The position numbers were made by a program, and so were the translations under genes. From the NCBI GenBank assembly GCA_022846635.1, contig AP025685.1:2294001-2358000 (forward strand): a stretch of 64,000 nucleotides of DNA. Reading direction: 5' to 3'. The notes below the pieces were generated by a model, which did not search any database, had not been told where the DNA came from, and worked only from the letters and a program-made list of their open reading frames with translations. Below are positions 3,549 to 36,002 of the stretch, in pieces (within the stretch, counting starts at the first letter, position 1; each line of letters starts with the position of its first letter). This DNA is from Salmonella enterica subsp. enterica serovar Choleraesuis (GTDB lineage: Bacteria; Pseudomonadota; Gammaproteobacteria; Enterobacterales; Enterobacteriaceae).

Positions 3549-5591
3549 ATGCAGCAGTTAGCCAGTTATCTCAACGGCGCCTGGCAGTTGGGGAGCGGTT
3601 CGAAACGCGTCATTCATCACGCCATCAGCGGAGAATCGCTGTATGAAGTATCCAGCGAGGGTCTGGATATGGCCGCCGCACGCCGGTTTGCTATCGAGAA
3701 AGGTGCCCCGGCGCTGCAAAGTATGACGTTCGTACAGCGTGCCGCCATGTTAAAAGCCGTGGCAAAAATGCTGCTGGCCGCCAAAGAAGAGCTTTACCTG
3801 CTCTCGGCCCAGACCGGTGCCACCCGCGCAGACGGCTGGGTAGATATTGAAGGGGGTATTGCCACCCTGTTCGCCTATGCCGGCATGGGCAACCGCGAAC
3901 TGCCGGACGATGTGCTGTGGCCGGAAGACGAGCTTATTCCGCTGTCGAAAAAAGGCGGGTTCGCCGCCCGCCACGTTTTAACCTCAAAATCTGGCGTGGC
4001 GGTTCACATCAACGCGTTCAACTTCCCGTGCTGGGGCATGCTGGAGAAACTGGCCCCAACCTGGCTTGCCGGAATGCCGGCCATAGTGAAACCGGGCAGC
4101 GATAGCGCTCAGCTCACTCAGGCCATGGTAAAGCTGATTGTCGACAGCGGCCTTGTGCCAGACGGCGCACTCAGTGTCATCTGCGGCGGCGCTGGCGACC
4201 TGCTGGCTAACCTCGATGAACAGGACGTAGTGACCTTTACCGGTTCCGCCAGCACCGGTCAAAAGTTACGCTGTCACCCTAATATTGTTGCCCGCTCCAT
4301 TCCATTCACTATGGAAGCAGACTCCCTGAACTGCTGCATTCTGGGGAGCGACGTCACGCCAGAGATGCCGGAATTCAACCTGTTTGTGCGCGAAGTCGTC
4401 AGAGAAATGACCGCCAAAGCCGGGCAGAAATGTACCGCCATTCGCCGCATCATGGTGCCGCAGGCTCAGGCCCAGGCGGTGACCGATGCCCTGCGCACTC
4501 GCCTGTCTGCCGTACGTTACGGCGATCCGGCCGAGGAAGGCGTAAAAATGGGGGCGCTGGTGAGCGTGGCGCAACGTGACGACGTGCAGCATCAGGTTCA
4601 GACTCTGGTGAGCGGCGGTTGTCAGGTGTTACTGGGCGGCGTTGCCGATATCAGCCAGCCGGGTGCGTTTTTCCCGCCAACCCTGCTGTGGTGCCCACAG
4701 CCGGATGAAAGCCCGGCGGTACATGCGGTCGAAGCATTTGGCCCGGTTGCCACATTGATGCCTTATCGCGATGACGATCATGCCATGTCTCTGGCACGTG
4801 CCGGCCAGGGCAGCCTGGCCGGAACGCTGGTCACCGCGGATGGCGAGCTGGCCCGCCGCTTCGTCCTTGGCGCAGCCCGCACGCATGGCCGCCTGCAAAT
4901 TCTTAACCAGACCTCATCGGAAGAGTCCACCGGCCACGGTTCTCCACTACCGATGCTGGTTCACGGCGGCCCTGGCCGCGCCGGTGGCGGCGAAGAGTTG
5001 GGCGGTCTGCGGGCGGTGAAACATTACATGCAGCGCACCGCCATTCAGGGCAGCCCGAGCATGATTGCGGCCATTAGCCAGCAGTGGGTACGCGGTGCCG
5101 ATGTATTTGAAGATGCGGTACATCCGTTCCGCAAATACTTCGAGCAGTTGCGCATCGGCGACAGCCTGCTGACCGCCCGTCGCACCATGACCGAAGCGGA
5201 CATTGTCAATTTTGCCTGCCTGAGCGGCGACCATTTCTACGCCCATATGGATAAGATTGGTGCCGCCGAGTCGCTATTTGGCGAGCGAGTGGTTCACGGT
5301 TACTTTGTGGTCTCTGCCGCCGCCGGGCTGTTTGTCGATGCGGGCGTTGGCCCGGTTATCGCCAACTACGGCATGGAAAACCTGCGCTTTATCGAGCCGG
5401 TGAAAATTGGCGATACTCTTCAGGTTCGCCTGACCTGTAAGCGTAAAACCGCCAAACCGCAGAAGAGTGCGGAAGATAAACCGGTTGGCGTGGTGGAGTG
5501 GTCGGTGGAGGTGTTTAACCAAAATCAGCAGGCGGTAGCGCTCTACTCGATTCTGACGCTGGTAGCGCGTCAGCACGGGGAGTTTGCTTAG
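3549..5591 (+). CDS. paaZ: PaaZ, bifunctional oxepin-CoA hydrolase / 3-oxo-5,6-dehydrosuberyl-CoA semialdehyde dehydrogenase
   Basis: 680 residues, the full PaaZ length. Residues ~1-520 are an NADP-dependent aldehyde dehydrogenase: [23 protein letters not shown] for NAD(P) binding, catalytic glutamate in FTMEADSLN and catalytic cysteine in [11 protein letters not shown]. Residues ~530-680 are a MaoC-like (R)-hydratase domain ([14 protein letters not shown], with active-site D and H, and [17 protein letters not shown]). It opens the oxepin-CoA ring and oxidises the reactive aldehyde. A GGAGGCAGTGTT leader precedes the ATG. In E. coli paaZ is next to tynA; here a 10 kb island separates them. 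Confidence 0.97.
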
Positions 5592-6303
5592 TTGGTAGCT
5601 GGCGCTATAGGCCGCGGGTGTGATTGGAACTTTGAGGGTTCCAGTTAGCGGGTTGATGCCTGTGGTTGGGTCAAACCGTGATTTCTCTTTGCGCCAAAAG
5701 TGAAATGTTCCGTTCGCTTATGTTCGCCAGAATATAATCCGATTATCACCGTGAACGTGTTAAGGGCTGTGCCGACAGCCCTTAACCCCTCCCAGCGGCC
5801 TCCTTTAAGAAACCGGCGCTGCGCAATGCGTGCCTCTCGCTCTCGCGCCTGCGGCACGGCTCGACTCAACATCCCCGTTTCGTTTACTCGTCCCCTCCGT
5901 GGAACTCGCCCTGCGGGCCATATGCTTCCGGCATTTTTGACGCGTCCGGCTCACCGGTTTCCATTGGGGTTAACTTCCTCGCTATAGTTTCCGTGCTTTC
6001 AGCATCATTTCGGTCACTACTCACGGCTAAATCTGAAGAGAGAAGTCCCTCATTCAATCCGCCGGCGCTCGAGGCAAGCATTTGGGTATTGTTGATATAG
6101 CTGGTGCTTTGGCCTACAGCCAGCATTGAGAAGTAGGAAATAACAGATTTGCCGAGGCTGTGATTAGTCTTACTGCTGGTTTTAGGGGCTGTAATTTGAT
6201 TGTCGGCTTTGTGCCAGAAGCGGACGTTGGAATGCCGAAGACTCTCTAATAGTGGATGGGTAGTTTTGCAGCGGGGTTTACATAGTGCTTGGCTTGCTGC
6301 CTT
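5592..6303. other. Intergenic stretch at island left edge, no convincing gene
   Basis: 712 bp between paaZ and the HEPN gene. Its main content is a diverged copy of the repeat family that flanks tynA (5710-6015). An 80-codon minus-strand frame (5884-6126) lies mostly inside that repeat and is probably not a gene. I see no tRNA, integrase or attachment site. Confidence 0.6.
5710..6015 (+). repeat. Diverged copy (H) of the tynA-flanking repeat
   Basis: The order of elements matches the copies at 14035-19620: CCGTTCGC, an AATATAATC segment, ACCGTGAACG, then a hairpin with arms TAAGGGCTGT and ACAGCCCTTA, then a block ending in TTTCCGTGCTTTCAGCA. The hairpin is one G:C pair shorter than in the other copies, and both arms are shortened together, as expected for selection on RNA structure. 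Sequence between the shared elements has diverged strongly, so this is an old member. Confidence 0.6.
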
Positions 6304-7914
6304 TTACTTAGGTTCTGACGAATACTTCTTCATATGCAGTTCATTGGTAATATAAGGAATATTCTCTTTTTTTTGTTTCTCACCTTCATATCTAACCATA
6401 AAGGCAAATGAAAATATTGCTGAACGGGTAATCTGAATCAACTGGCTGAAATGGTGAATAAACTCATCCTCTTTGATAAAAAGAATATCTTTAATCAATT
6501 TATAAGACTGGTAAAGATCTTCTGCTTTATCACTTTTGTGCACCACTAAAAATTTATGTTCTAAATCATTGCGCCACTCTTTATAAAAAGCTAATTCGCC
6601 ACCTTTATTTTTATTTAGGTCAGTAGCAATGCTGTACAATGCTAAAAGTCCAGGTGACTTTATATCTTCAAACCGTTGTCTTCTGTTATCAACGTCTAAC
6701 TGCCAGAAGCTTTGAAAATAGATATTTCTCTGTAACCCACCCTTCTTTGCGGGTGGATAAACTTTGTGAAGTTCACAGATACATACCGCAATTTTATCGA
6801 GAATACCAAAGCAGAGACGAAATGCCGTTCTGACCTTCTCAATATCAATGCCTAAGATCTCGTCATTATGTAACTCTAGAAAATGGCATTCTTCTTTAAT
6901 TTCATCCGTATCCTGAGGATAAAGGTATTCAAAATAGAGATGGCGGGCAAGTGAAAATTCCGATTTAAAGCGGTTTAATGCCATCTCCATTGGAATAATA
7001 AAATCACCGGTTACACCAGAAGAAGAGATGACAAGATTATCGGTGGCACTCCCCACACAGGGGCAATAAAGACCGTGCTCGGACAGCGTCAGATGATTTA
7101 TTAGGCAGAATTGCCTATATGCACTTAATGCGTCAAACTCCTGTTGCGTGAGCATGTCATCATGCTCATCCGTTTCGCCGTCTGCTGATATACATTTTTC
7201 TATTTTATCATTTGTTTGTGCTATGCGTCCAAGATAGAACGATTCCCATTGTGGAGGGATTTTTTTGGAAATAGATGCATTAATATACCCTTTTCGTATC
7301 TCCTTTAATTGCTTAATGGAGTATGAAGATGAAACAAGGTTTAGCTCAATGAGCGCGACAGAACGATTGACCCAAGACTGTGGTATATCTAATCCCTTGC
7401 GATTAGCGAGGTCATAATATCTTAGTGCTTCACTCATCCTAAATTGGCTTCTTAGTGAATTGGCCAGATTAACGGACAGTTCTGTTTGGAATTCTTCGCT
7501 CTCCTGTGAAGAGAGGTTGAAGGCTCGCCAATAGATGTTTTTTAACGAAACGAGTTCTTCTATTGACTGGAATGTGTGGTCGTGAGGATTATCAACACTA
7601 ATCTTATTAGACAAGGCATTACCATAATTATAATAAAAATGGCTCTCTCCTTGTACATGCGCTAATGCTTCCTTGTTATCATCCATCAGCTTAAAACCAA
7701 GCTCTGCTGCATTTTTATGGTTGCTCATTTTCCCAATATCAACAAGACCGCCAGCCACATTCCCCAGCACTATAAAATAATTTTCACCCTTGACCGTTAT
7801 TTTTCCCAGTTTTTCCAGGAATACAATGGATTGCTGGTATGCCAGGTCAAAATCACCACAGTCAACCAGTCGGTGAATATTGAGACTTTCATCTACAAGT
7901 TCTTTTGTAATCAT
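6304..7914 (-). CDS. TPR-like protein with C-terminal HEPN domain (LA2681-like), putative defence RNase
   Basis: 536 residues. The N-terminal ~250 residues are alpha-helical with tetratricopeptide-like pairs (DLAYQQSIVFLEKLG; AALRYYDLA-type helix SEALRYYDLANRKG). The C-terminal region holds R448-N-D-L-E-H453, a fit to the RX4-6H catalytic motif of HEPN ribonucleases, inside a helical bundle that resembles the LA2681-type HEPN family (recognised from memory). HEPN proteins with RX4-6H usually cut RNA in toxin-antitoxin or abortive-infection systems. The ATG overlaps the stop of the upstream NTPase gene as ATGA, so the two are surely one operon. Base composition is visibly more AT-rich than in the neighbouring paa genes, suggesting horizontal transfer. 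The function is inferred. Confidence 0.75.
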   Translation of the reverse strand: MITKELVDESLNIHRLVDCGDFDLAYQQSIVFLEKLGKITVKGENYFIVLGNVAGGLVDIGKMSNHKNAAELGFKLMDDNKEALAHVQGESHFYYNYGNALSNKISVDNPHDHTFQSIEELVSLKNIYWRAFNLSSQESEEFQTELSVNLANSLRSQFRMSEALRYYDLANRKGLDIPQSWVNRSVALIELNLVSSSYSIKQLKEIRKGYINASISKKIPPQWESFYLGRIAQTNDKIEKCISADGETDEHDDMLTQQEFDALSAYRQFCLINHLTLSEHGLYCPCVGSATDNLVISSSGVTGDFIIPMEMALNRFKSEFSLARHLYFEYLYPQDTDEIKEECHFLELHNDEILGIDIEKVRTAFRLCFGILDKIAVCICELHKVYPPAKKGGLQRNIYFQSFWQLDVDNRRQRFEDIKSPGLLALYSIATDLNKNKGGELAFYKEWRNDLEHKFLVVHKSDKAEDLYQSYKLIKDILFIKEDEFIHHFSQLIQITRSAIFSFAFMVRYEGEKQKKENIPYITNELHMKKYSSEPK

Positions 7915-10900
7915 GATTCACTTTCCTTACTTAGATGATTTTTCGTTTCAACAGTCGAATTAGCCTCACCTGATACGTCAATTACTATCGCAGACAGGCG
8001 GTTTCGCTTAACCGTTGGCACAGCTTCATTAAGAATGTCCTCCATTGTCGTGGCATTTACTGGGGGTGGTGTGTCTTTCTCCGGGCGAGGGATAGCGTTT
8101 GGTCGAGAAGCACCAAACCAGAACACAAGATAGATGCCGTAGCCTGCGGCATCGGGATTGGTAGTATAAAGTTGGTCAAGTTGCTCGTTAAGTGCTCTCC
8201 AGACGTCCCGGTGATAATCACGCTTTATCTCAATGGGGATCTTTATTCCTGGAATTGAAATGATGATATCAGCCCTTTTACTCGAAACCATGTGGCCTTC
8301 TGGCTCACAGATTATTTGTAACGGATGGAGTCGTGCTCTAAGCAGCTCCAGAAAAAAATTCCGACAGCTCTCTTCAGGCTTAGGCACTAAAATTTGACCA
8401 TTGCCATTCTCATTCCAGAACTGTTTATAAATATCGGTATTTTCATAAGTAATTCGGTTAGCGATATCCCGCAAATGATCTAACAATAACGCATAGAGAT
8501 CCATTACATTAGCTGGGGTCTGATTTTTAAGCGTATTCAACGCTTGCTTCCAGTTAGTGTGTTGAAACTGTGATTCCCGATACCGCACCTTCTGGGTGCT
8601 TTGAGCGTGCAAGAGATAATCCCGGTAACTTGTACATTCTGGCAGTAATAATAAACGTTCAAATACTTCACCGGCATCGTATGAAGAAAAAGAAGAAACG
8701 TCATCAATCAATCTTTTGATAAAATCAGCATACTCCCAATAGTTTGCTGAGTTAGAGTCGTTTCTTGCCACGCGATCTGCATTAGGAAAATGAGTAGCGG
8801 AGACAGTGATGATCGCTTCCAATTGTGTTAGTGATAAACGCTGCTCACTACTCCCACGGCCTCCTTTCGCCTTACCTGATAGTTGACGAATGAGCGCTAT
8901 CATTTCCGGCGCGGATTTTGATTCAGATAAAAATAGATCCTGACACTGGTTTGGAGCGAGTAAATAAATACATACCAGCCAAATTTGATAACTTGGATTT
9001 TTGAGTTTTGAGGGTTGCGCTACCATCAACTCAGATAACTGCAATAACTCTGCATGACTCTCAGGATGCGCTAACAACCACCCCACCAGGTTTTGTAAGT
9101 GGAGAACATCATCAGGGTGCTCTTTAGCTAGTCTCATAACTAAAGGAACGGTATAGTCGATTGGAATGCAGGTATCATTTAACAGATAGTTTAGTGCACG
9201 GATATGTTGCAACTGATTATTAATGCAGAAATTGATAATGTGGTAATAGGTTTTGATGAAAAATGCCGTTTTGTTAAGTATCACATCTCTTTTCCACGGT
9301 AATGAATAATCACTTACAACATTATTGTCTTTGGTGAAAAGTGCTAATATCACATCCAGAGCCAATAGCGTTGTTAATAAACCTTCGCTCCATTGTGTAA
9401 TATCAGGATGTTTTTTATATAACTCATCGCTTCCTGCCAGCACCGCATACCACCATCCGTAATACTCTCTCTTCAGCAAAGCACAATTCAACTCGTCAAT
9501 TGTGGGCAGATCTGAACGATTTAAAATCGCTAAAAGCCCGGATATCGCATCAGTGACGTTTTCGGCACCTAATATGTCTGCACAGCGCTGCACTGGCGTC
9601 AATTTGTCATCAACATCGCTGTATTTCGAATAGTAAATATAGGAAATATGTTTGAGCCACTCCAAATGTTTGCCCGACACAATTTCCTGACGATATAACT
9701 CGAAACTGTGCCTATCTTCATAACGCGCCGCGTTTCGTTCTTTCTCATACGCTATTTGTCTAAGATTATGTTTTACTCGCCAATCGTCAATCTCACAGAC
9801 GATGGAGGTCTCAAACACAGTAGTCAACTTTACATTTAAATGGCAGTACGCGGAAAGAAATTCAAACGCCTCTTGGGATGGCTTGGCACATCGGTAAAGG
9901 ACCACAAATGTCAGTCGATAAATACATTCAGTTTTATCTGAACCAGCGTCAGCATGGGATAAATAGTGGATAAAACGAGCCAGCAAAAGCTCATCAGGGA
10001 TAAGATGAAAGGTGCTTTCAGTAAATTCATGTAAGAACAAGTATCGAGGATCATGGCGTGTAAATGAGAGAATGGCGGCGTCTATAATATCTTCATACTG
10101 CCAGCTACGATTTTTTATCTCATGAACGATAGATTTCTGCAAATCATCGTAACTGCGATAGTGGTGATAATGGGAGTAGCTATAGAACGTTTTTAGGCAC
10201 AACCATATCTGATCCGCACTATAATTACTATCCTTGCTCAGTATGTGCAATAAGCCAGCTTCGAGAAAATGCACAACTTCATATTGATTCTTAGATGAGG
10301 AATCCCAATCTTTACTGTGATCGTTATGGTATTGTTCAAGATACTCAAAGATAGCGAGAAGACCAGCTGTCGGTACAATATCATTCAGTCGCCATAATGC
10401 GCCTATCGGTAATCGCTCACTGCTTATATTTAATGTATCAACCAGCAATTGTGCTATATCCTGTGGTACAAAGTATTCTTGATAGAGCAACTGAATAATA
10501 TGGTTACGCAACCGGATGCTATCGTGATTTTTGTCTTTTAATCCCGCAAAAAAACGTACTGAAAATTTCTTGCCAGACACTCCAAAATGGATTAATGCTG
10601 TTATTGCTTCTTCTTTTTCCGCATAAGAGGAACCCTCTGATTTGACAATATCGATTAAGTCATCACTCAATGCGACTATCGGTGTTGTTACCGATAAGGA
10701 TTCCAAAACGATCATGCGCAAAGAAAATGACGAATGAGGATCGCGGATTATCTGTCGCAACAGAGTTTCCATTTCTACTGTCGCGAAGCCATTCAGATAT
10801 GAATTGAGACCGTGATTTCTAAACCAGGGATCACGTTCTGAAAGTTTTGACAGCGCCACAATTAGATTTTGTTTTTCCGCTATCGGTAATGAAGCTGCAT

Positions 10901-11996
10901 CACCATAGGTCAGAACGCCATAAGGATCGGCTTCAATGAATACCTGGGCGTATTGCGGTAAAAAGACCGCTAGCCATGCGTGTAAACCTCTCAACTCTGA
11001 AGACGGATATCCATCAAATCCCAGCATACTTCTCAAACGCCCCATGGGTAGCCCTTTGTCAACGATCCCGGCTAACCATTTTGCCGATAAATACTCAGCA
11101 ATTGTCCTGTGGCTGTAATCAACAGTTTCAAGCTCATCTCCGGCAGAAAAAACCCGCCTCGATAACGCCGCTCTAATTATTTCATGCGAGAAGAACGAGA
11201 TGGTTCTGTAACTGGGGTATTCTGGTCGGATATCGTTCGGAAGTAGAGAAATCCCGGAAACATCACTCAATATGCGCAACGCGCAAATTGCTCCAGCAAC
11301 TTGCTCTAATTCGTCGCAGGTATAAATTCCTGAAGTTAGACGCGTATGCTCTTGGCTATGTTCAGTTAAAAGGAACTGTGTCGCAGAGTGGAAAAGTTCA
11401 GACCTTGTTCGGGGCCAGTTTCCTTCTTTAACGGCTTCAGCCAGCATTAGCAGATTTTGTGGGTTGTAAAGAAATTCGCTGGCATCATGTTTTTCTGCTT
11501 CAGCCAGAAACGTTTCGGGGTGTTCTACACCATTAGCTTGTAGAATTGCAATTTGCTCTTCTTTTGAGAGTGACTGCAAATGTAAAACAACATAGCCTCC
11601 CGTCAGCTCAAAATAGGGTAAAAATGCTGACAAGTCTGATTCGCCTAACCAATCCTGAGAGCGACAAGAAATTCTGACATTTTGTGGCGTTTGGGAAAAA
11701 AGCCTACGGACGATGTCATCTACAACGTCACTACTGTTACTGGCACTCCTCTTCTCATCTAATGCATCGATGAACAACGTTTTCTGATTATCAATAGGTA
11801 CGCCACTTAAGAAGTGACGTACTGTCAGATATTTTGCCTCTTGCAATGCCGCAAACTGTTTGAAGAGGTGCGTTTTTCCAGCACCAGGATCACCAAGCAG
11901 AACAATATTCGGAAAGTGAAAATAATCACTAAATACCACAGTTTGGGTATCTTTTTCCTGAAGAGGATAGATTTGCCTGACTTGCCTGTTTAGCAT
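7911..11996 (-). CDS. Large NACHT/STAND-like P-loop NTPase with C-terminal PD-(D/E)xK-type nuclease motif
   Basis: 1361 residues from ATG 11996, preceded by AGGAG. Walker A is GDPGAGKT at residues 35-42 and Walker B is TLFIDALDE around 73-81; the doubled acidic residues and the following VRISCRSQDW sensor strand resemble NACHT/STAND ATPases. Residues ~400-1200 look like long helical repeats (HEAT-like), usual for ligand sensing. Near the C-terminus, D1243 (KRADIIISI) followed by E1256-I-K1258 (PIEIK) and then NEQLDQLY fits a PD-(D/E)xK restriction-endonuclease core. No N-terminal effector precedes the P-loop, which begins about 30 residues in. It is the first gene of an operon with the HEPN gene and is AT-rich. 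This is probably an anti-phage sensor-effector; I do not recognise a named system with this exact pair. Confidence 0.72.
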   Translation of the reverse strand: MLNRQVRQIYPLQEKDTQTVVFSDYFHFPNIVLLGDPGAGKTHLFKQFAALQEAKYLTVRHFLSGVPIDNQKTLFIDALDEKRSASNSSDVVDDIVRRLFSQTPQNVRISCRSQDWLGESDLSAFLPYFELTGGYVVLHLQSLSKEEQIAILQANGVEHPETFLAEAEKHDASEFLYNPQNLLMLAEAVKEGNWPRTRSELFHSATQFLLTEHSQEHTRLTSGIYTCDELEQVAGAICALRILSDVSGISLLPNDIRPEYPSYRTISFFSHEIIRAALSRRVFSAGDELETVDYSHRTIAEYLSAKWLAGIVDKGLPMGRLRSMLGFDGYPSSELRGLHAWLAVFLPQYAQVFIEADPYGVLTYGDAASLPIAEKQNLIVALSKLSERDPWFRNHGLNSYLNGFATVEMETLLRQIIRDPHSSFSLRMIVLESLSVTTPIVALSDDLIDIVKSEGSSYAEKEEAITALIHFGVSGKKFSVRFFAGLKDKNHDSIRLRNHIIQLLYQEYFVPQDIAQLLVDTLNISSERLPIGALWRLNDIVPTAGLLAIFEYLEQYHNDHSKDWDSSSKNQYEVVHFLEAGLLHILSKDSNYSADQIWLCLKTFYSYSHYHHYRSYDDLQKSIVHEIKNRSWQYEDIIDAAILSFTRHDPRYLFLHEFTESTFHLIPDELLLARFIHYLSHADAGSDKTECIYRLTFVVLYRCAKPSQEAFEFLSAYCHLNVKLTTVFETSIVCEIDDWRVKHNLRQIAYEKERNAARYEDRHSFELYRQEIVSGKHLEWLKHISYIYYSKYSDVDDKLTPVQRCADILGAENVTDAISGLLAILNRSDLPTIDELNCALLKREYYGWWYAVLAGSDELYKKHPDITQWSEGLLTTLLALDVILALFTKDNNVVSDYSLPWKRDVILNKTAFFIKTYYHIINFCINNQLQHIRALNYLLNDTCIPIDYTVPLVMRLAKEHPDDVLHLQNLVGWLLAHPESHAELLQLSELMVAQPSKLKNPSYQIWLVCIYLLAPNQCQDLFLSESKSAPEMIALIRQLSGKAKGGRGSSEQRLSLTQLEAIITVSATHFPNADRVARNDSNSANYWEYADFIKRLIDDVSSFSSYDAGEVFERLLLLPECTSYRDYLLHAQSTQKVRYRESQFQHTNWKQALNTLKNQTPANVMDLYALLLDHLRDIANRITYENTDIYKQFWNENGNGQILVPKPEESCRNFFLELLRARLHPLQIICEPEGHMVSSKRADIIISIPGIKIPIEIKRDYHRDVWRALNEQLDQLYTTNPDAAGYGIYLVFWFGASRPNAIPRPEKDTPPPVNATTMEDILNEAVPTVKRNRLSAIVIDVSGEANSTVETKNHLSKESES

Positions 11997-12001
11997 TCTA
12001 T

Positions 12002-12324
12002 AGGCTCCTGAGTATCTATTTTTGTTCTACCAAATCTATATGGCAGGTTTTGCTCCAAATTTACCATAGACTTTCAGCCGATACCGTAAATCATCTAACC
12101 CACCATGGTTGCTATGATGTCACGTTTTAAGTTACATGACAGACTCATAGTGAGCAGAACCGGCTGCTAGGACGCTGTGATCCCATTTAAACATTGATGG
12201 AATCCGGGATGACGCTGGCTCCGTTGCATGGGCTGCATGTCACCCAAAGCAGACACTCACAACCCTTTATCCAAACCCTCCCGGCTTAAAACCGGGAGGT
12301 TTTGCTAATCCACTCCGCTCAATT
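12002..12324. other. Intergenic region upstream of the NTPase operon
   Basis: 323 bp between two minus-strand genes. It should hold the promoter of the NTPase-HEPN operon, but I see no near-consensus one. At its right end is a terminator hairpin for symE. No ORF with a ribosome site is evident. Confidence 0.5.
12277..12303. terminator. Rho-independent terminator hairpin (symE 3' end)
   Basis: Arms CCTCCCGG and CCGGGAGG with loop CTTAAAA. On the plus strand TTTT follows directly; on the minus strand, downstream of symE by 22 bp, GTTTGG follows. It probably ends symE transcription and insulates the NTPase operon. Confidence 0.65.
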
Positions 12325-12801
12325 TCAACCGCGAATTAAGCCATCATCTGGATGACGGCGGATCGTTGGGATATTACCGGTGTCGTTCAGGGCATAGGGG
12401 AAGGTTTTGAGCCAGTTGGTGAGTTTTTGTTTGTTGATATCGACCACGCTCAGGCCTTCCAGGCAACCCCAGAGTTCGCGGGTGTTTTGCGGGGTGATGA
12501 CGATGCAGTCCGGCATGACGCGGATTTTGATCGGCATGCCGTCGAGAAAACCTGCTTTGGTCAGCCATTCACCTTGCAGAGGAATATATTGATGGCGGAT
12601 CCGGGAGTGCAGTTCGCAGCAAGCGGCGCTGGTTTCTGCGGTATTAGCTCTGGGATGGATAGCTGCGTCTTCGGTATTTTTTCCGTGCAGACGACGGGCG
12701 TTCTTTTTGTGAATGACCTCGGGGAAACGATCGTTTATTTCAGATGACGAAAGATCCGTTTGGGCCACGGTGGATTCTGGCATACACTTCTGCTTAGCCA
12801 T
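12325..12801 (-). CDS. symE: SymE family type I toxin
   Basis: 158 residues; E. coli SymE is 113. The SymE core is clear at residues ~72-105: IPLQGEWLTKAGFLDGMPIK then IRVMPDCIVITPQ, the AbrB-like swapped-hairpin fold. The extra ~65 N-terminal residues are low-complexity and the C-terminal tail is unrelated to E. coli SymE. SymE in E. coli is an SOS-induced protein that condenses nucleoids or affects RNA stability, and is held down by the antisense RNA SymR. Here the ATG follows GAGGAG by eight bases. A LexA-like box and a TATAAT lie ~120 bp upstream, which fits SOS control. It sits beside the putative defence operon. Confidence 0.78.
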   Translation of the reverse strand: MAKQKCMPESTVAQTDLSSSEINDRFPEVIHKKNARRLHGKNTEDAAIHPRANTAETSAACCELHSRIRHQYIPLQGEWLTKAGFLDGMPIKIRVMPDCIVITPQNTRELWGCLEGLSVVDINKQKLTNWLKTFPYALNDTGNIPTIRRHPDDGLIRG

Positions 12802-13843: not shown

Positions 13844-14034
13844 GATTTTCTCTCTGCGTAGTTTTGATTACCTGGCTTCGAGGCACGCCAGGACTCGTCC
13901 CCTGCCCTTAATCCAGCAACATATGGAATTAAGTATATTTCAGCGACATCATTGCCACTTTAAAAATGAGGAACGGGCAGCGATATCTCCCCTGAATTTG
14001 TTCCATCCGCACCTTTCGGCAGCGGGCTATAGTT

Positions 14035-14580
14035 CCGTTCACGCCACTTTTCTGCCCTATAACCTGTTCGTCACCGGTGAACGGGTTAAGGGGCTGTACC
14101 GACAGCCCCTTAACAATCCCGGCGGCCCGATCGCTTCGCCACTGCGTGGTGCCCTCGTTTTATCCGTCTGCCAGCCCGGAATGCGGGCCGTCAGCCGGAA
14201 CTCCTCGGCTCGCGGACTCGGGGAATGACTTTCTCGCTGTTATTTCCGTTCTTTCAGCAACGCCGTTGCTGCATGGGATAAAAGAATGACAGCAGGAGAT
14301 CTCCGGCTTTAAGCCGCCGAGACACGACGGCTGACTGCCCGCCAGCGTGAGCATCCGCAGCACACTGCTGGCAGGCCAGGCAGGCAGACATGGAGTAAGC
14401 GAGGGAACCGCGCAGCGGCGGCGATCGCCGGCGCCCGGGAGTGCAGAGGGTGGCGGCGCGGCCACCCTTTGCAGGCGCTCTGCGTCAGCGGCAGAAGGAG
14501 AAATACGCAACCTATAGAGCGCAACCTGGCTCCGGGGGTTAATACATATGATTCAGCAACATTGGCAATGAGATCGGGTT
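14035..14580 (+). repeat. Repeat copy A (long form, left array)
   Basis: Defined here from one CCGTTCACGCC to the next; the period to copy B is 546 bp. It contains the complement pair CCGTTCAC/GTGAACGG, a hairpin with arms AAGGGGCTGT and ACAGCCCCTT, the string ATTTCCGTTCTTTCAGCAACGC, then a GC-rich half with a second hairpin (GGGTGGC/GCCACCC). Overlapping frames read through it (for example SVHATFLPYNQPVTGERVKG) and resemble phage Ash/Icd-like annotations. I treat them as by-products of the repeat. Confidence 0.85.
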
Positions 14581-15124
14581 CCGTTCACGCCACTTTTCTG
14601 CCATATAATCAGCCCGTCACCGGTGAACGGGTTAAGGGGCTGTGCCGACAGCCCCTTAACAATCCCGGCGGCCCGATCGCTTCGCCACTGCGTGGTGCCC
14701 TCGTTTTATCCGTCTGCCAGCCCGGAATGCGGGCCGTCAGCCGGAACACATCGGCTCGCGGACTCGGGGAATGACTTTCTCGCTGTTATTTCCGTTCTTT
14801 CAGCAACGCCGTTGCTGCATGGAATAAAAGAATGACAGCAGGAGACCTCCGGCTTTAAGCCGCCGAGACACGACGGCTGACTGCCCGCCAGCGAAAGCAT
14901 CCGCAGCACAGTGCTGGCAGGCCAGGCAGGCAGACATTCGTGCGCGAGGGAACCGCGCAGCGGCGGCGTTCGCCGGCGCCCGGGAGTGCAGAGGGTGGCG
15001 GCGCGGCCACCCTTTGCAGGCGCTCTGCGTCAGCGGCAGAAGGAGAAATACGCGACTCATAGAGCGCAACCCGGCACCGGGATTAATAAATATGAATCAG
15101 CACCATTGGCAGCGGGCTACGGTT
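14581..15124 (+). repeat. Repeat copy B (long form, left array)
   Basis: Direct tandem copy of A with only scattered substitutions, 544 bp to the next copy. The same hairpin and the same GC-rich second half are present. The start of its GC-rich half reads ACCTCCGGCTTTAAGCCGCC, and its end reads GCGCAACCCGGCACCGGG where A has GCGCAACCTGGCTCCGGG. Confidence 0.85.
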
Positions 15125-15215
15125 CCGTTCACGCCATTTCTCTGCCCTGTAATCAGCCCGTCAGCCGGAACACCTCGGCTCACGGAGCCGGGGATAACTT
15201 CCAGAGAAAGAAGCG
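15125..15215 (+). repeat. Repeat copy C (internally deleted, left array)
   Basis: It begins like A and B (CCGTTCACGCCATTTCTCTGCC), but after AATCAGCCCGTCA it jumps straight to GCCGGAACACCTCGGC, skipping the main hairpin. In copy B both junction points carry CCGTCA, so the deletion joins two short direct repeats. The right half of the unit is absent and sequence leading to the tynA terminator follows. Confidence 0.75.
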
Positions 15216-15261
15216 GACAACGATATACCCCACGACTGTACGGCACGACAGCTATGGCAAA

Positions 15262-15293
15262 AGCGTAAAAGAAAGGGGCCATCTGGCCCCTTT
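15262..15293 (-). terminator. tynA terminator
   Basis: Downstream of tynA on the minus strand: arms AAAGGGGCCA and TGGCCCCTTT, then TTTCTTTTACGC. A typical Rho-independent terminator 22 bp after the tynA stop. Confidence 0.8.
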
Positions 15294-15315
15294 ACACTGC
15301 TATCGGATATCGCCG

Positions 15316-17586
15316 CTACTTCTTCTTCGGCCCCAGAGTTGGGGTTTCGTTAAAGAAGTTCCACGGTTTAAGCAGGGTATGCACCCACTCCGTTGGCATA
15401 ATTGGCCACTCTTCGGCACGCGCCACATGGGTAGTACCGGTGGTCATCCACACTACAGTATCCGTATTTACCAGCGACTCGTCGTTTTTAGTGTATTCGC
15501 CAAGCCCGGTGTCATGGGTTGAACGGTTCGGGTATTTGCCTTCCGGATAGCGTTCATCCGGGTTATAGCGAGTCACCCACAGCTGTTTGTCCATAAAGTT
15601 CAGCCGGTGATAAATCCACTCATCTTTGGCAAAGTTGGCTCCAGTCGCTACCGGATGAGTACCGCCCGCGTAAGGAATAATCTGGTAAGAAACCGGGTTA
15701 CCCATCGCGTTTTCTTTATTCGGGTTACTCATCAGGCGAATGGTGCTTGGGCTAAATTTCTGCGCCGCCGCTTTTTCAGAGTCAAAGGTGTACTGATTAA
15801 GCTGCATGGTGCTGGTGCGCGGGCCGCCGCTCTGGTTTGGCTTCACTTCAGGATCCATCGCCACCAGTGAGTTGTTCTCTCCATCCACATCCAGATCCAG
15901 CCGGAAGTTATAGATATGCTGGTGGGTGGTGCCGACGATGTTATGGTCGATAAGGGTACCGTAACGGGTATCATCCTTCGCTGTCGCATCGTGCATGGTT
16001 TTGGCTTTCACGCCTTTTACCGCCTCGATACCCGTTGCACCGGCATCGATACCGATAGTGCCGTTTTCATGGAACACCCAGTCGAAGATGTAATCGTAGT
16101 TGCCGATGGTGCTTATCCAGCGCACCACCAGCTCACGGCGCTCGGCGCTGACGTTTGGTTTACCCATCTCCTGGTGCTTATATTCCGGCCCGGCGTAACG
16201 TTCGAAAATAGCGATAGCGCGCGGAATTGTCGTCGGTTTTCCGAGGTAGTCCGGAATAGTTTCGTCGAGGAACACCGCGTTGCCCGGCGCGTCTTTACCC
16301 GGGTCCTGAGAAGATGTCAGGGTGCCCATTCCGTAATCGCCGGAGTCCAGATAGGCTTTGAAATACCAGCCGATATCCGGGTCGCCGTAAGGCACTATCA
16401 TGCCACCCAGCGAGCCTTCATACATAATTTTGCGTTTCTTGCCGTTGTCGTTCCAGGTGACGGTGGAGAACTGCGGGCCGGTACGGGAATCCATACTGAG
16501 ATGGAACTCCCAGTTCAGCCAGCGCACCGTATCGCCGGTGATGGTGTAGTTTTTACCCTCTGGTTCGCTGATGATAAGCGGCTTCAGCGCCACTTTCTCG
16601 CGATCGCGACCATCGTACGGGCGCGCGGCGGTTGGCACCGGAATGACCGGGCCATCTTCAATTTTAATTATCTCTTTCTTCTCTAAATCGACCACTGCCA
16701 CCAGGTTTTCAATCGGGTGCGCCCAATAGTTGCCGTCGCCCACGTCGAGATAGCTCACTACTTTTAACAGCCGGTCTTCCTGTTTAAGCCCGTCTTTCCC
16801 ATCGAAATAGCCGACGGTCAGCGGCGTGGTCACGACTTTGGAAGGGTCATCGACACCGTGTTTTTTCAGTGCTTCGGCGAATGGCTTGCTGGCGGTAATT
16901 ATCTGCTGAACGCTGTTAAAATCGTCCAGCAGTACCATGCCCTGGGCATTATCCACCGCCTGCCAGTGGGTGATTTTCTTGTCGTTAATATTGACCACTG
17001 CTTCGGTAATCTGCGCGCCGGTAAGCATACTCACCTGTGCCTGGCGCGGGCCTTCCGTTTTGGTGCCATTGAGCGCAAACGCCCAGACTTCAGCCTTCGG
17101 GGGCTCTTTCAGGGCAATCTGGGTAAAACGGGTATTGGGTTTAAAATCCGGGGAGGCCTTAAGAATGGCGACAACGTCGTTAATTTCCTGGGCATTCAGT
17201 GAGTTAAGCGGATGGGCTACTTTTTCCACCTGGAAAGTCTGGTCGATACCTGACTGGAACACTTCGTTAATGAAGCCTTCTTCCACCATCGCCTGCTTAC
17301 CCTTCATCGTCACCGGCACCGTCAGATTCACCGATTTGCCGTTAACTCTGGCGGTCTTTGCTCCGGGCTTTACCTCCACCCACGCGCCGTCTTTAGAAAT
17401 AGTGTACAGGCCGGCGTAATCATCCCACTTTACCTCTGCGCCGAACTGTTTAAGGGTCTGTTCCAGCGGCACCATATGCGCTTCGCCACCGTGGGCAAAG
17501 GCGGCCGGTTGCCAGGAACTGAGTCCCAGGGTCATTGCCAGTGCCAGCGCAATTTTACGCGGGCGGAATGTGAATGAATTTGCCAT
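15316..17586 (-). CDS. tynA: TynA, periplasmic copper amine oxidase (primary-amine / phenylethylamine oxidase)
   Basis: 756 residues from ATG 17586, which has GAGG 6 bases upstream; an in-frame ATG 18 bp earlier lacks a ribosome site. A signal peptide (ALALAMTLGLSSWQPAAFAHG) targets it to the periplasm. The topaquinone tyrosine lies in the conserved NYDY motif (TIGNYDYIFDWVFHENGTIG), and copper ligands are the H-x-H in TTHQHIYNFRLD and the His in TGTTHVARAEEWPIMP. It oxidises phenylethylamine, tyramine and related amines to aldehydes plus hydrogen peroxide and ammonia; FeaB then makes phenylacetate. It is read on the minus strand, opposite to what the surrounding paaZ/feaB order predicts from E. 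coli, and is enclosed by inverted repeat arrays. Confidence 0.96.
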   Translation of the reverse strand: MANSFTFRPRKIALALAMTLGLSSWQPAAFAHGGEAHMVPLEQTLKQFGAEVKWDDYAGLYTISKDGAWVEVKPGAKTARVNGKSVNLTVPVTMKGKQAMVEEGFINEVFQSGIDQTFQVEKVAHPLNSLNAQEINDVVAILKASPDFKPNTRFTQIALKEPPKAEVWAFALNGTKTEGPRQAQVSMLTGAQITEAVVNINDKKITHWQAVDNAQGMVLLDDFNSVQQIITASKPFAEALKKHGVDDPSKVVTTPLTVGYFDGKDGLKQEDRLLKVVSYLDVGDGNYWAHPIENLVAVVDLEKKEIIKIEDGPVIPVPTAARPYDGRDREKVALKPLIISEPEGKNYTITGDTVRWLNWEFHLSMDSRTGPQFSTVTWNDNGKKRKIMYEGSLGGMIVPYGDPDIGWYFKAYLDSGDYGMGTLTSSQDPGKDAPGNAVFLDETIPDYLGKPTTIPRAIAIFERYAGPEYKHQEMGKPNVSAERRELVVRWISTIGNYDYIFDWVFHENGTIGIDAGATGIEAVKGVKAKTMHDATAKDDTRYGTLIDHNIVGTTHQHIYNFRLDLDVDGENNSLVAMDPEVKPNQSGGPRTSTMQLNQYTFDSEKAAAQKFSPSTIRLMSNPNKENAMGNPVSYQIIPYAGGTHPVATGANFAKDEWIYHRLNFMDKQLWVTRYNPDERYPEGKYPNRSTHDTGLGEYTKNDESLVNTDTVVWMTTGTTHVARAEEWPIMPTEWVHTLLKPWNFFNETPTLGPKKK

Positions 17587-17683
17587 GCCTGACCTCTGCA
17601 TCATGTTGTCTTTGTTGGTTGCAGGTAACTGTTTTTAGAACGCGGTATGCATCATTACCCTAACAGCGGCAGGCGCACTACGC

Positions 17684-17720
17684 TTGCCTCGCTCTGCCAG
17701 GCTGTTTGCTGACTCTGCCA
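17684..17720 (-). promoter_or_regulatory. Paired FeaR-binding sites upstream of tynA
   Basis: On the minus strand TGGCA-N8-AAA (17720-17705) is a perfect match to the FeaR half-site TGNCA-N8-AAA, and TGGCA-N8-CAA (17699-17684) is a one-mismatch copy 21 bp downstream. The feaB promoter has the same two sites in the same order and spacing. Confidence 0.7.
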
Positions 17721-17936
17721 GGGGGATGAATGTGTGATCTGATTCCGGCAGACATGTGGGGGCGCCTTATCGATTGTTTGGGTTTGGCACCGTAGGCCGT
17801 CTGTTTTTTTGCTGCGTGCCAGGGTGGGAAATTGATGGCTAATATGCCGGGATTATTTGCGGATTGCGCGGCATGTTTTGCGAATTTGGGTTTGGGCTGC
17901 TGGCATGGGTATTTAGTCCGGTGTGTCGAGACTGCT

Positions 17937-18433
17937 GCCGGGTTGCGCTCTATGGGTTACGTGTTTCTCTTCCTGCCGCTGACGCAGAGCGCTCGCAAAG
18001 GGTGGCCACGCCGCCACCCTCTGCACTCCCAGGCGCCGGCGAACGCCGCCGCTGCGCGGTTCCCTCGCTTACTCCATGTCTGCCTGCCTGGCCTGCCAGC
18101 ACTGTGCTGCGGATGATTTCGCTGGCGGGCAGTCAGCCGTCGTGTCTCGGCGGCTTAAAGCCGGAGGTCACCCTGCTGTCATTTTGCTCTCTGATGCAGC
18201 AATAGTTTTGCTGAAAGCACGAAAATAACAGCGGAGAAGTTAACCCCCGGATCCGCGAGCCGAGGAGTTCCGGCTGACGGCCCGCATTCCGGGCTGGCAG
18301 ACGGATAAAACGAGGGAACCACGCAGTGGCGATGCGATCGGGCCGCCGGGATTGTTAAGGGGCTGTCGGTACAGCCCCTTAACCCATTCACCTGTGACGG
18401 GCAGATTATTGGGCAGAAAAGTGGCGTGAACGG
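17937..18433 (-). repeat. Repeat copy D (long form, right array)
   Basis: Inverted relative to copies A-C. From the CCGTTCACGCC end at 18433 it carries the full unit, including the GC-rich second half with GGGTGGC/GCCACCC, ending near 17937 by tynA. Its first bases (GGCAGCGGGCTATAGTTCCG) are the same as those of copy A, so A and D are closest in their leading part. Confidence 0.8.
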
Positions 18434-18753
18434 AACTATAGCCCGCTGCCAAAAGGTGCCAACGTTGCCTGATGCCTTAAAGCTGAAGATCCCTGCTGTC
18501 ATTCTCATATCCAATGCAGCAATCGCGCTGCTGAAAGCACGAAAATAACAGCGGAGAAGTTAACCCCCGAGTCCGCGAGCCGAGTTGTTCCGGCTGACAG
18601 ACCGCATTCCGGGCTGGCAGACGGATAAAACGAGGGAACCACGCAGTGGCGAAGCGATCGGGCCGCTGGGATCGTTAAGGGGCTGTCGGTACAGCCCCTT
18701 AACCCGTTCACCGGTGACGGACAGATTACAGGGCAGAGAAATGACGTGAACGG
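18434..18753 (-). repeat. Repeat copy E (short form, right array)
   Basis: 320 bp, only the first half of the unit: leading element, hairpin (AAGGGGCTGT/ACAGCCCCTT) and the TTTCGTGCTTTCAGCA end. The GC-rich half is replaced by a short linker containing GCCTGATGCCTTAAAGC. Confidence 0.8.
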
Positions 18754-19300
18754 AACCCGATCTCGCTGCCAATGTTGTTGAATCATATGTATTAACCCCC
18801 GGAGCCAGATTGCGCTCTATAGGTTGCGTATTTCTCCTTCTGCCGCTGACGCAGAGCGCCTGCAAAGGGTGGCCGCGCCGCCACCCTCTGCACTCCCGGG
18901 CGCCGGCGAACGCCGCCGCTGCGCGGTTCCCTCGCTTACTCCATGTCTGCCTGCCTGGCCTGCCAGCAGTGTGCTGCGGATGCTCACGCTGGCGGGCAGT
19001 CAGCCGTCGTGTCTCGGCGGCTTAAAGCCGGGGGGTTCCCTGCTGATATTTTTATATTTAAAGCGGTAATAGAGTTGCTGAAAGCCCGGAAGCAACAGCG
19101 GAGAAGTTAACCCCCGGATCCGCGAGCCGAGGTGTTCCGGCTGCCAGACCGCATTCCGGGCTGGCAGACGGATAAAACGAGGGCACCACGCAGTGGCGAA
19201 GCGATCGGGCCGCTGGGATTGTTAAGGGGCTGTCGGTACAGCCCCTTAACCCGTTCACCGGTAACGGGCTGATTATTAGGCAGAAAAATGGCGTGAACGG
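18754..19300 (-). repeat. Repeat copy F (long form, right array)
   Basis: 547 bp, full unit. Its junction with E (TCTGGCTCCGGGGGTTAATA and following) is nearly the same as the A-B junction in the left array, so the two arrays are homologous inverted repeats across more than one unit. Confidence 0.8.
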
Positions 19301-19620
19301 AACCCGCGCCCGCAGCCAAAAGGAGCCAACGCTGCCTGATGCCTTAAAGCCGAAGATCCCTGCTGTCATTCTCATATCCAATGCAGCAATCGCGCTGCTG
19401 AAAGCACGGAAATAACAGCGGAGAAGTTAACCCCCGGATCCGCGAGCCGACGTGTTCCGGCTGACAGACCGCATTCCGGGCTGGCAGACGGATAAAACGA
19501 GGTAACCACGCAGTGGCGAAGCGATCGGGCCGCTGGGATTGTTAAGGGGCTGTACCGACAGCCCCTTAACCCGTTCACCTGTGACGGGCCGATTATTGGG
19601 CAGAGAAATGACGTGAACGG
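19301..19620 (-). repeat. Repeat copy G (short form, right array)
   Basis: 320 bp short form like E, with the same linker. The E-to-G and D-to-F distances are both 867 bp, which shows a tandem duplication of a short-plus-long pair. The repeat ends about 110 bp from the puuP stop. Confidence 0.8.
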
Positions 19621-19728
19621 AACCCATACCCATACCAGCAGCCGCAGCCAAAAAGATACTCCATTAAACGTGAATAAACGGAGCCACTCACATCAACAAA
19701 GTATAAAACCCCAGCCAACTGGCGCTCG

Positions 19729-33369: not shown

Positions 33370-34869
33370 TTAATAACGCACGCAGACAGATTTGGTTTCG
33401 CAGAACCCATCCAGCCAGTCGGGGCCAAAGTCGCGGCCAGTACCGGACTGTTTCATGCCGCCAAATGGCAGGTTGGCATCAATTAGCGTATGGCTGTTGA
33501 TCCACACGGTTCCTGCCTGGAGCCGGTTGCTGTAGTCCAGGCCGCGGCCCAGATCGCGCGTCCAGACGCTGGCGGTCAGCCCGTAGTCGGAGTCATTCGC
33601 CAGACGCAGAGCCGTTTCCCCGTCTTCCACCCGAATCAGGTTAACTACCGGGCCGAATACCTCTTCGCGATACAGAGCCAGCGATTCATCGGGATTGATA
33701 ACCAGAGTCGGAGCAATGTAATAGCCGCCATTGCCCGGTCCGGCATCGCCGCCAATCAGCTCTGCCCCGCCGCGCCGCGCATCGTCCAGAAAACCGTTCA
33801 CTTTCTGCTGATGAGCTTTAGAGACCAGCGGGTTTATCTGGAAACTTGGGTCCATACCCGCCCCAACCCGCAGGGATTTTACCGCGCCTTCAAAATCCCC
33901 GGCCAGGCGGTCAAACAGTGGCGCTTCAATATAGATGCGCGAACTGGCCGCGCACACCTGGCCCTGATTGAGGAAGCTGCCCGTCATTAGCCCTTCCACC
34001 ACCTGTGCCGGATCGGCATCTTTCAGCACGATTGCCGGGTTTTTACCACCCAGCTCAAGGGTCACTCGAGTCAGCGTATCCGCCGCGCTGCGAGCAATGG
34101 CTTTACCGGTCTGGGTAGAGCCGGTGAAGCTCACTTTTGCCACTTTAGGATGAGTAGACAGCGCCGCGCCGCTAACCGCGCCGTTGCCAGTCACTACATT
34201 GAGGACACCATCGGGAATGCCCGCTTCGCTTGCCAGCTCGGCAATACGCAGCAGGGTGAGCGGCGTGGTTTCCGAGGGTTTAATCACAATAGTGCAACCC
34301 GCCGCCAGCGCAGGCATGATTTTCCACATACCAATCATTAGCGGGAAGTTCCACGGGACGATACCAGCTACCACCCCTACCGGCTCTTTTCGCGTCCAGG
34401 CCTGGTAGCGCGCCCCTTCCGGCATTGGAATAGAGACATCCAGCGTGCGGCCGCTGATTTTGGTGGTCAGCCCGGCGGTATAGCGCATCCAGTTAAGGGT
34501 ACATCCCAGTTCAAAGGCGCGGGAAATAGCAATGGATTTGCCCTGCTCCAGGGTTTCCAGCTGAGCCAGCTGTTCCTGATTTGCTTCCACCAGGTCGGCA
34601 AAACGCAGCAGGATCCGTTCACGCACGGCGGGAAGCATTTGCGACCAGACGCCTGAGGTAAAAGCGCGCCACGCGGACATAACCGCCCGGTCAACATCGC
34701 TGGCGCTGGCATCGGCAGTGCTGGAGATGGCCTGCCCGTCGGCAGGGTTATAAACGGTCAGCCGCGCGTTCTGGTCGGACTCGCTCCAACGGCCATCAAT
34801 ATATAGTCCGTGCTGGCGGCCCAAAAACTGGCGTACGCTTTCCAGCACATTCACCTGAGTTGCGGACAT
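33370..34869 (-). CDS. feaB: FeaB, phenylacetaldehyde dehydrogenase
   Basis: 499 residues, the same length as E. coli FeaB and with the same C-terminus ([20 protein letters not shown]). It is a class of NAD aldehyde dehydrogenase: [30 protein letters not shown], catalytic Glu in [12 protein letters not shown] and Cys in [13 protein letters not shown]. It oxidises phenylacetaldehyde, made by TynA, to phenylacetate, the entry compound of the paa pathway. It is divergent from feaR. In E. coli it is convergent with tynA; here ~16 kb lies between them. Confidence 0.96.
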
Positions 34870-35102: not shown

Positions 35103-36002
35103 ATGGCGGGGCAACAAAGTCTTGATAACTGGCTGACACAGGTAAATCGAGTGTGCGGAAAGTTCCGCGCCCGGACGCTCGGCGATTGCTTCCAGGGCGC
35201 TATCGACGAGTTTCACGCCAATGCAATGAAACTCAGTACCGTGACGGTTTCTCAGGCCTGCCTGTATCGCACCAGTAAAGAGATAGCCCAAAGCGACGAT
35301 GCCTGGTTCTATACGGTTTTCCAGCTGGATGGCGAAGCTTTTATGGAGCAGGATGGCCGCCAGGCCAGGCTCCAGGCGGGTGATATCACGCTGATTGACG
35401 CTTCGCGGCCCAGTACCTTCAGCTGGCGTCAGGAGTCGCGTCAAATCTCGCTGTTATTACCGCGCCGCCAGCTAGAACAAAGCATGCAGTTCGCGCCGAT
35501 ACCCTGCGCTACGGCGCTGCCTGCCACGCTGCCTATGGTGAAGTTAAGCCATAATCTGCTGCGGGAAAGTATGGGGGAAGGACCAATGAGCGCTCAGGAG
35601 AGCGAGGCGGCAATGGCAGCAATCGGTGCGCTGCTGCGCCCGTTGCTTCAGGGCGGTGAGCCAGCCGTGAGTAAACGCGATCGCCAGTTTGATGCGGTGC
35701 TGGCCTTTATTGATGAACAGATTCAGTCCAGCGAATTACGCCCTGAGTGGATTGCCGGGCAGAACAACTTATCCGTGCGCAGCCTGTACCGAATGTTCGC
35801 CGCACGTGGCCTGGTGGTGGCTCAGTATATTAAAAACCGCCGCCTCGACCTGTGCGCCGAGGCGTTACGCAGCCCGGCAAATCAGGAGAAGCTGGCAGGT
35901 ATCGGCCTCAACTGGGGCTTTGCCGATCACAGCCACTTCTCCACCGCCTTTAAACAGCGCTTTGGTGTATCACCCAGCGCCTGGCGTAAACGCTATTTAT
36001 AG
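35103..36002 (+). CDS. feaR: FeaR, AraC-family activator of tynA and feaB
   Basis: 299 residues, about E. coli length. The N-terminal ~170 residues are a cupin-like sensor (AWFYTVFQLDGEAFMEQDGR), and the C-terminal ~100 form the AraC double helix-turn-helix (NLSVRSLYRMFAARGLVVAQ; GFADHSHFSTAFKQRFGVSP). It activates the aromatic-amine genes in response to the aldehyde products. It is divergent from feaB; a CTCTCGC/GCGAGAG palindrome lies between them (35003-35019). It is convergent with ydbL with no gap. Confidence 0.95.
   Translation: MAGQQSLDNWLTQVNRVCGKFRARTLGDCFQGAIDEFHANAMKLSTVTVSQACLYRTSKEIAQSDDAWFYTVFQLDGEAFMEQDGRQARLQAGDITLIDASRPSTFSWRQESRQISLLLPRRQLEQSMQFAPIPCATALPATLPMVKLSHNLLRESMGEGPMSAQESEAAMAAIGALLRPLLQGGEPAVSKRDRQFDAVLAFIDEQIQSSELRPEWIAGQNNLSVRSLYRMFAARGLVVAQYIKNRRLDLCAEALRSPANQEKLAGIGLNWGFADHSHFSTAFKQRFGVSPSAWRKRYL

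Follow-up and report, generated by a model that had tools for sequence, protein, structure and literature searches.

The tynA locus

We analysed a 64,000-nucleotide stretch of the genome of Salmonella enterica subsp. enterica serovar Choleraesuis (contig AP025685.1, positions 2,294,001 to 2,358,000), referred to as the window. It contains tynA, the gene for a primary-amine oxidase, flanked by two arrays of one repeat family that face each other in opposite orientation, at 14009-15215 and 17937-19639. The genome (G000) consists of one contig of 4.26 Mb, is 100% complete, and contains a single match to tynA. The genes by which the orientation of tynA can be judged, and the DNA just upstream of it, are as follows.

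3549-5591, plus strand: paaZ (TIGR02278)
15316-17604, minus strand: tynA, primary-amine oxidase of 762 amino acids (NF011285, 1432 bits against a cut-off of 1278)
17657-17707, minus strand: tynA upstream DNA, similar to that of loci L049 and L057 (82.7% over 52 nt, E 5.6e-6, two of 80 loci)
33370-34869, minus strand: feaB, aldehyde dehydrogenase (Pfam Aldedh; named by match and by its place in relatives)
35103-36002, plus strand: feaR-like AraC regulator (Pfam family and match to relatives' genes)

HEPN, EruA, SymE-like and RibD-like genes lie between paaZ and tynA, and permease, dha-type and other genes between tynA and feaB.

Each array combines two related modules, A and B, in opposite orientation, of which B more closely resembles TRIP1, a repeat of Escherichia coli. 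The modules are arranged as follows.

14009-15215, plus strand: left array, in the order A1, B1, A2, B2, truncated a3
14032-14303, plus strand: module A1, with the end TTCCGTTCAC N34 GTGAACGG, then the TTAAGGGG hairpin
14303-14540, minus strand: module B1, TRIP1-like, opposite to A
14578-14850, plus strand: module A2
14843-15086, minus strand: module B2
15095-15215, plus strand: truncated module a3, with an internal deletion
17937-19639, minus strand: right array, the inverted counterpart, in the order B, A, A, B, A, A with rising coordinates
17937-18172, plus strand: inner right module B
18169-18463, minus strand: module A, R4 (inner)
18489-18783, minus strand: module A, R3
18804-19039, plus strand: outer right module B
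19036-19330, minus strand: module A, R2
19356-19639, minus strand: module A, R1 (outermost)
5707-5969, plus strand: lone A-type copy, about 115 bp past paaZ

The A modules are spaced by about 544-546 bp on the left and by 320, 547 and 320 bp on the right. The original prediction, made from the letters of the window, had counted three plus-strand copies to the left of tynA and four minus-strand copies to the right, which is the correct number of A modules if the truncated third copy on the left is included. It had treated all of them as copies of one repeat; a single family is indeed present, with A and B modules of opposite orientation mixed in each array. The arrays do lie at 14035-19620, as it had proposed, and reach slightly further on both sides. 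Short open reading frames overlap them.

The two arrays are long inverted repeats, in keeping with what had been predicted. The best pair of inverted arms (14303-14842 and 18492-19031) extends over 540 nt at 94% identity, a second pair (14009-14296 and 18172-18459) over 288 nt at 90%, and paired stretches of the two arrays are 84-98% alike. The longest exact inverted matches between the arrays measure 121, 110 and 100 nt; among 178 random pairs of similar size taken from 20-60 kb of the window, the longest was 16 nt. Within one array, the longest exact direct match is 103 nt on the left and 70 nt on the right.

Module B1 has its nearest relative in the opposite array: it is 97.5% identical to the outer right B and 93.0% identical to B2 of its own array. 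The junctions that had been described as nearly identical are best matched by 14303-14524 (in B1) and 18810-19031 (in the outer right B), which agree at 221 of 222 positions. For the A modules, A1 and A2 are nearest each other over their whole length (91.2%, compared with 88.1% for the best cross-array pair). On inspection of the alignment by eye, the outer flanks of A1 and A2 look like those of R4 and R3, and the last ~90 bases cluster by array. From these module comparisons, it looks as if part of the arrays has been exchanged or converted across the arms, as judged from the B modules, while the A modules would have changed in concert within each array.

Orientation of tynA in related genomes

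A search with TynA found 149 relatives, the best 80 loci of which were examined for gene order and arrays. Matches to paaZ and feaB were counted if they reached at least 60% identity over at least 40% of the length; in 31 of the 80 loci no paaZ match passed this bar on the stretch examined. Wherever both genes were found, paaZ and tynA were on the same strand (49/49, none opposed), and feaB was opposite to tynA in all 38 loci in which it was found. E. coli K-12 has the order feaR- feaB+ tynA- paaZ- paaA+, in agreement with the gene order given in the original prediction. The window has paaZ+, tynA-, feaB- and feaR+. By comparison with the relatives, paaZ, feaB and feaR are therefore arranged in the usual way, and only tynA is reversed, on a strand that is unique among the compared loci. 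The predicted flip of tynA relative to its neighbours is thus borne out, and the strands of paaZ and feaB are those expected of a reversed block; tynA and feaB are not adjacent, other genes lying between them.

No array was found in the stretches examined of the 80 relatives' loci. They contained one strict core copy of the repeat (L066) and three single partial matches with E up to 1e-5 (L041, L043, L059), located between paaZ and tynA in L041, L059 and L066 and after tynA in L043. L041, L059 and L066 are Enterobacter loci with unflipped tynA.

A parallel flip in genus g91

Three genomes of another genus, g91 (G090, G211 and G214), carry genes of the argI, rraB, miaE, yjgM and yjgN types beside valS. 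These were identified by Pfam, all of them in G211 and argI and yjgN in G090. Matches to K-12 proteins are 71-92% identical for argI, rraB, yjgM and valS in all three genomes, and 31-32% for yjgN. The K-12 order is tabA+ argI- rraB+ yjgM- yjgN+ valS-, with no miaE there; G090 has the same order and G214 has it on the other strand (valS+ yjgN- yjgM+ rraB- argI+). In G211 the order is valS+ argI- rraB+ yjgM- yjgN+, so that the block is reversed in one of the three species. In G090 and G211 the block has inverted arrays of the repeat family at each edge. G214 has array sequence on both sides, limited on the valS side to ~160 nt in which no strict core copy was found. In both G211 and G214, tabA is on the far side of the block, at a contig edge with array sequence. 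Between the g91 arms, exact inverted matches reach 127 nt in locus L129 and 239 nt in L130.

The repeat family in the genome

Besides the tynA pair and the lone copy after paaZ, the family occurs at ten further places in the genome. Nine of these have internal repeats, often spaced by ~640 bp; the place at 230 kb is without them. A search of 198 family genomes including G000, made with a strict pattern that describes one A-module end, matched 35 places in G000 and at least one place in 17 of the 198 genomes (G000 included), and the reversed pattern gave zero matches in the same search. Outside the tynA pair, 3760 kb was the only place with matches to the tynA modules of at least 90% over 100 nt. 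An association with tRNA genes was rejected for the ten other places, where there was one odd tRNA-like match, ~3.4 kb from the array.

The A-module end can be drawn with two stems. In an alignment that covers several genera with 10 sequences, standard pairs make up 97.1% of pair cells (shuffled mean, 90.1), and double changes occur in 9 cells (shuffled mean, 2.8; none of 500 shuffles was as high). Three pairs have a double change, all of them in the hairpin; this count is unremarkable, as 97 of 500 shuffles reach it. The outer stem is almost invariant, and covariation neither supports nor opposes it.

Several neighbourhoods of the repeat deserve a brief description. In the window, HEPN (LA2681-like), EruA-type NACHT antiphage (NF058535, 1198 bits) and SymE-like genes occupy 6304-12801, with the lone repeat copy past paaZ on one side and the left tynA array on the other; this stretch is perhaps a defence insert bracketed by repeats. 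At 3633-3637 kb of the genome (L014, 5342-9077), two family stretches of the same orientation enclose two open reading frames, one of them Hcp-like. This could be a direct-repeat counterpart of the tynA arrangement, which would delete rather than invert. The copies at 3760 kb (L016, 5020-5870) belong to the tynA subfamily and separate an anaerobic ribonucleotide reductase gene from the 4Fe-4S-type gene that follows it, by type nrdD and nrdG, a pair that is usually compact. Matches to the Rfam antisense RNA Ysr276 lie inside pepA near arrays, both in G000 (L015, 4438-4632) and in g91 (L129, 2315-2509; L130, 18677-18871).

Origin of the flip

The most probable explanation, in which we have considerable confidence, is that tynA was turned in place by homologous recombination between the two inverted tandem arrays. 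The repeat belongs to a superfamily of intergenic, GC-rich elements, with TRIP1 and TwoAYGGAY (Rfam RF01731) among its members; in this genome it has expanded into tandem arrays, and a crossover of array with array would have inverted the segment between them, tynA plus its flanks. General recombination ordinarily acts on inverted repeats as long and as similar as these, which lie 2.8 to 5.1 kb from each other. We infer that the crossover took place inside the arrays by the general (RecA) pathway, as a past event and not as a regulated switch. The match of 17657-17707 to two relatives suggests that part of the 5' flank of tynA turned with the gene. Since this upstream DNA stayed with tynA, the flip need not change its control, and it is therefore read as a past, probably neutral rearrangement. 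The inversion between arrays that had been predicted from the window is thus an inferred event that draws support from the inverted arrays at both edges, the likeness of B1 to a module of the opposite arm, the strand of tynA, the parallel in g91 and the behaviour of TRIP1.

Several points weigh against this explanation. Both paaZ and feaB are separated from tynA by other genes, which means more than one event. The closeness of A1 and A2 points to homogenisation within an array, not to exchange between the arms. A state with arrays preceding the inversion was not seen, the compared set including no congener, and the arrays could have grown after the flip. The flip in g91 rests on one draft genome, G211, with a contig that ends in an array.

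If the arrays are younger than the flip, something other than their recombination would have turned tynA, with the repeat family colonising and amplifying on both sides later. Such a history would fit the many intergenic sites at which the family is amplified in the genome, and the single copies between paaZ and tynA in the unflipped Enterobacter loci. The opposed arrays at both edges of tynA, the B module common to both arms and the array-bounded flip in g91 argue in the other direction, and we consider later colonisation unlikely. The exact inverted matches of at least 100 nt within ~5 kb, which are long enough for general recombination, could also make the arrays an active, reversible switch, with both orientations coexisting in a culture and flipping altering the expression of tynA or its neighbours. 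We regard this as quite improbable, given that some native upstream DNA is still attached to tynA and would not be separated from it by a flip, and that a scan of 15 neighbouring genes in 3.5-36.0 kb of the window found no recombinase, a distant one being possible. The same scan led us to reject a site-specific invertible element of the fim/hin type. Finally, the orientation of tynA may be an assembly error: inverted repeats are a classic cause of such errors. Against this, the longest exact inverted match is 121 nt and the paired stretches differ enough that ordinary reads or read pairs should separate the arms, and the genome is a single, complete contig. We therefore think an assembly error highly improbable, and return to recombination between the arrays as our preferred explanation.

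Relation to known elements

In E. coli, the available text of PMC10888264 reports 156 rearrangements between TRIP1 copies in 6725 genomes, one of them inverting 1.3 Mb; it places TRIP1a beside aqpZ and gives the TRIP1 types as 84-94% identical to TRIP1a. In a set of six sequences, to which the E-values refer, the K-12 TRIP1a stretch beside aqpZ matches an element of genus g23 at 79% over 139 nt (E 1e-30) and the left tynA array at 77% over 101 nt (E 2e-15); its matches to elements of two other genera are weak or absent (L032, E 0.002; L136, E 3.3). The shorter TRIP1b matches the tynA array at 74% over 62 nt (E 4e-5). Global alignment scores were judged against the maximum of 100 shuffles each. 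The genome's own B unit agrees with TRIP1a at 171/243 positions (score 231; shuffle maximum 117), tynA B1 at 153/217 (170; 122) and the outer right B at 150/219 (169; 120), followed by the own A unit at 154/225 (135; 113) and, as a borderline case, A1 at 139/206 (126; 114). These alignments indicate homology between the repeat family and E. coli TRIP1. With 67-71% identity, which is below that among the E. coli types, the family is a superfamily relative and not TRIP1 proper.

A survey of 149 family genomes for TwoAYGGAY, made with strict filters, gave matches with E of 0.001 or less in 21 genomes and scores above the cut-off in 12; it found nothing in G000. A looser search of G000 gave 25 weak matches, none above the cut-off and all 25 in the family's ten other places. 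The best score, 35.8 bits, is at another array (gathering score, 43 bits), and the K-12 TRIP1a stretch scores 30.6 bits (E 0.17), also under the cut-off. An Rfam scan of 13-21 kb of the window at E up to 1 gave no match, TwoAYGGAY included. Since the tynA arrays are without a match and the weak matches of the genome all lie elsewhere, the tynA modules appear to be a diverged subfamily. In other genera, TwoAYGGAY matches occur in tandem ~550-650 bp apart (G101, G102) or as close inverted pairs (G141, G055, G161). By our criterion, the tynA arrays contain one GGA-loop hairpin only, and such hairpins are frequent in the array of L012. A role as CsrA decoy has been proposed for TwoAYGGAY (PMC4333381, available portion); at the tynA locus this reading was rejected in view of the single GGA-loop hairpin. 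The Yersinia repeat YPAL/RU-2, from the part of PMC2759123 that includes Table 1b, has by eye two GGA-loop hairpins like those of TwoAYGGAY and may be a further member of the family.

Mobility of the family is seen once, for one insertion in another genus, g23, and not for the arrays of G000. A perfect 9-bp duplication borders the 604-bp unit inserted in G022, and the congener G183, in which the site is empty, has these 9 bp only once. The ends of this unit resemble IS4 ends, and IS4-type terminal inverted repeats are present in g23 loci and L123; none were found in 12.8-20.0 kb of the window at the threshold used. The IS4 N-terminal domain is present in three of nine genomes searched and was not found in G000. 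With neither this domain nor IS4-like ends at the arrays, IS4 was rejected as a driver in G000.

There is about an even chance, in our estimate, that TRIP1, TwoAYGGAY and the IS4-ended mobile element form one enterobacterial superfamily, that in several genera its tandem arrays are hot spots where small inversions recur, and that TwoAYGGAY is chiefly the hairpin at the centre of a mobile DNA repeat. This would join three things that have been described separately, namely E. coli TRIP1, the Rfam family and the IS4-ended insertion. Caution is needed in that TwoAYGGAY matches need not be functional RNAs. The available part of PMC10888264 mentions neither 'TwoAYGGAY' nor 'Rfam', and the link of TRIP1 to TwoAYGGAY was not found in print in a search made chiefly outside subscription papers. 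Recombination between inverted repeats is a known kind of event; what is added is the link between TRIP1, TwoAYGGAY and IS4 ends, and a second array-bounded flip. Two independent gene blocks, tynA and argI-yjgN in g91, have flips bounded by the same repeat family, which makes the role of arrays in gene-order change testable.

The family's inner hairpins in other genera match RF01731, but Rfam treats this motif as an RNA element and not as part of a repeat (PMC2864571 and PMC4333381, available portions). An IS4-ended miniature inverted-repeat transposable element is represented by the 604-bp unit of g23, with its IS4-like ends and 9-bp target duplication, whereas the arrays of G000 are without such ends. 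Alternating inverted palindromic units in intergenic DNA recall BIME/REP elements (PMC2817692, in part), but the units here are ~240-300 bp and REPs are 20-40 bp (PMC3733652, in part). There is also a likeness in kind to TRIP1, a GC-rich intergenic repeat of ~250 bp to which the tynA B modules are 68-71% identical and for which the available text of PMC10888264 reports rearrangements including inversions, as well as 0-5 copies per genome with each type at its own locus. The G+C content is 62-65% in TRIP1, compared with 61.5% in the left tynA array and 59.5% in the right. Unlike TRIP1, the family described here has two opposed module types in tandem arrays at many sites, and the segment that they bound is small.

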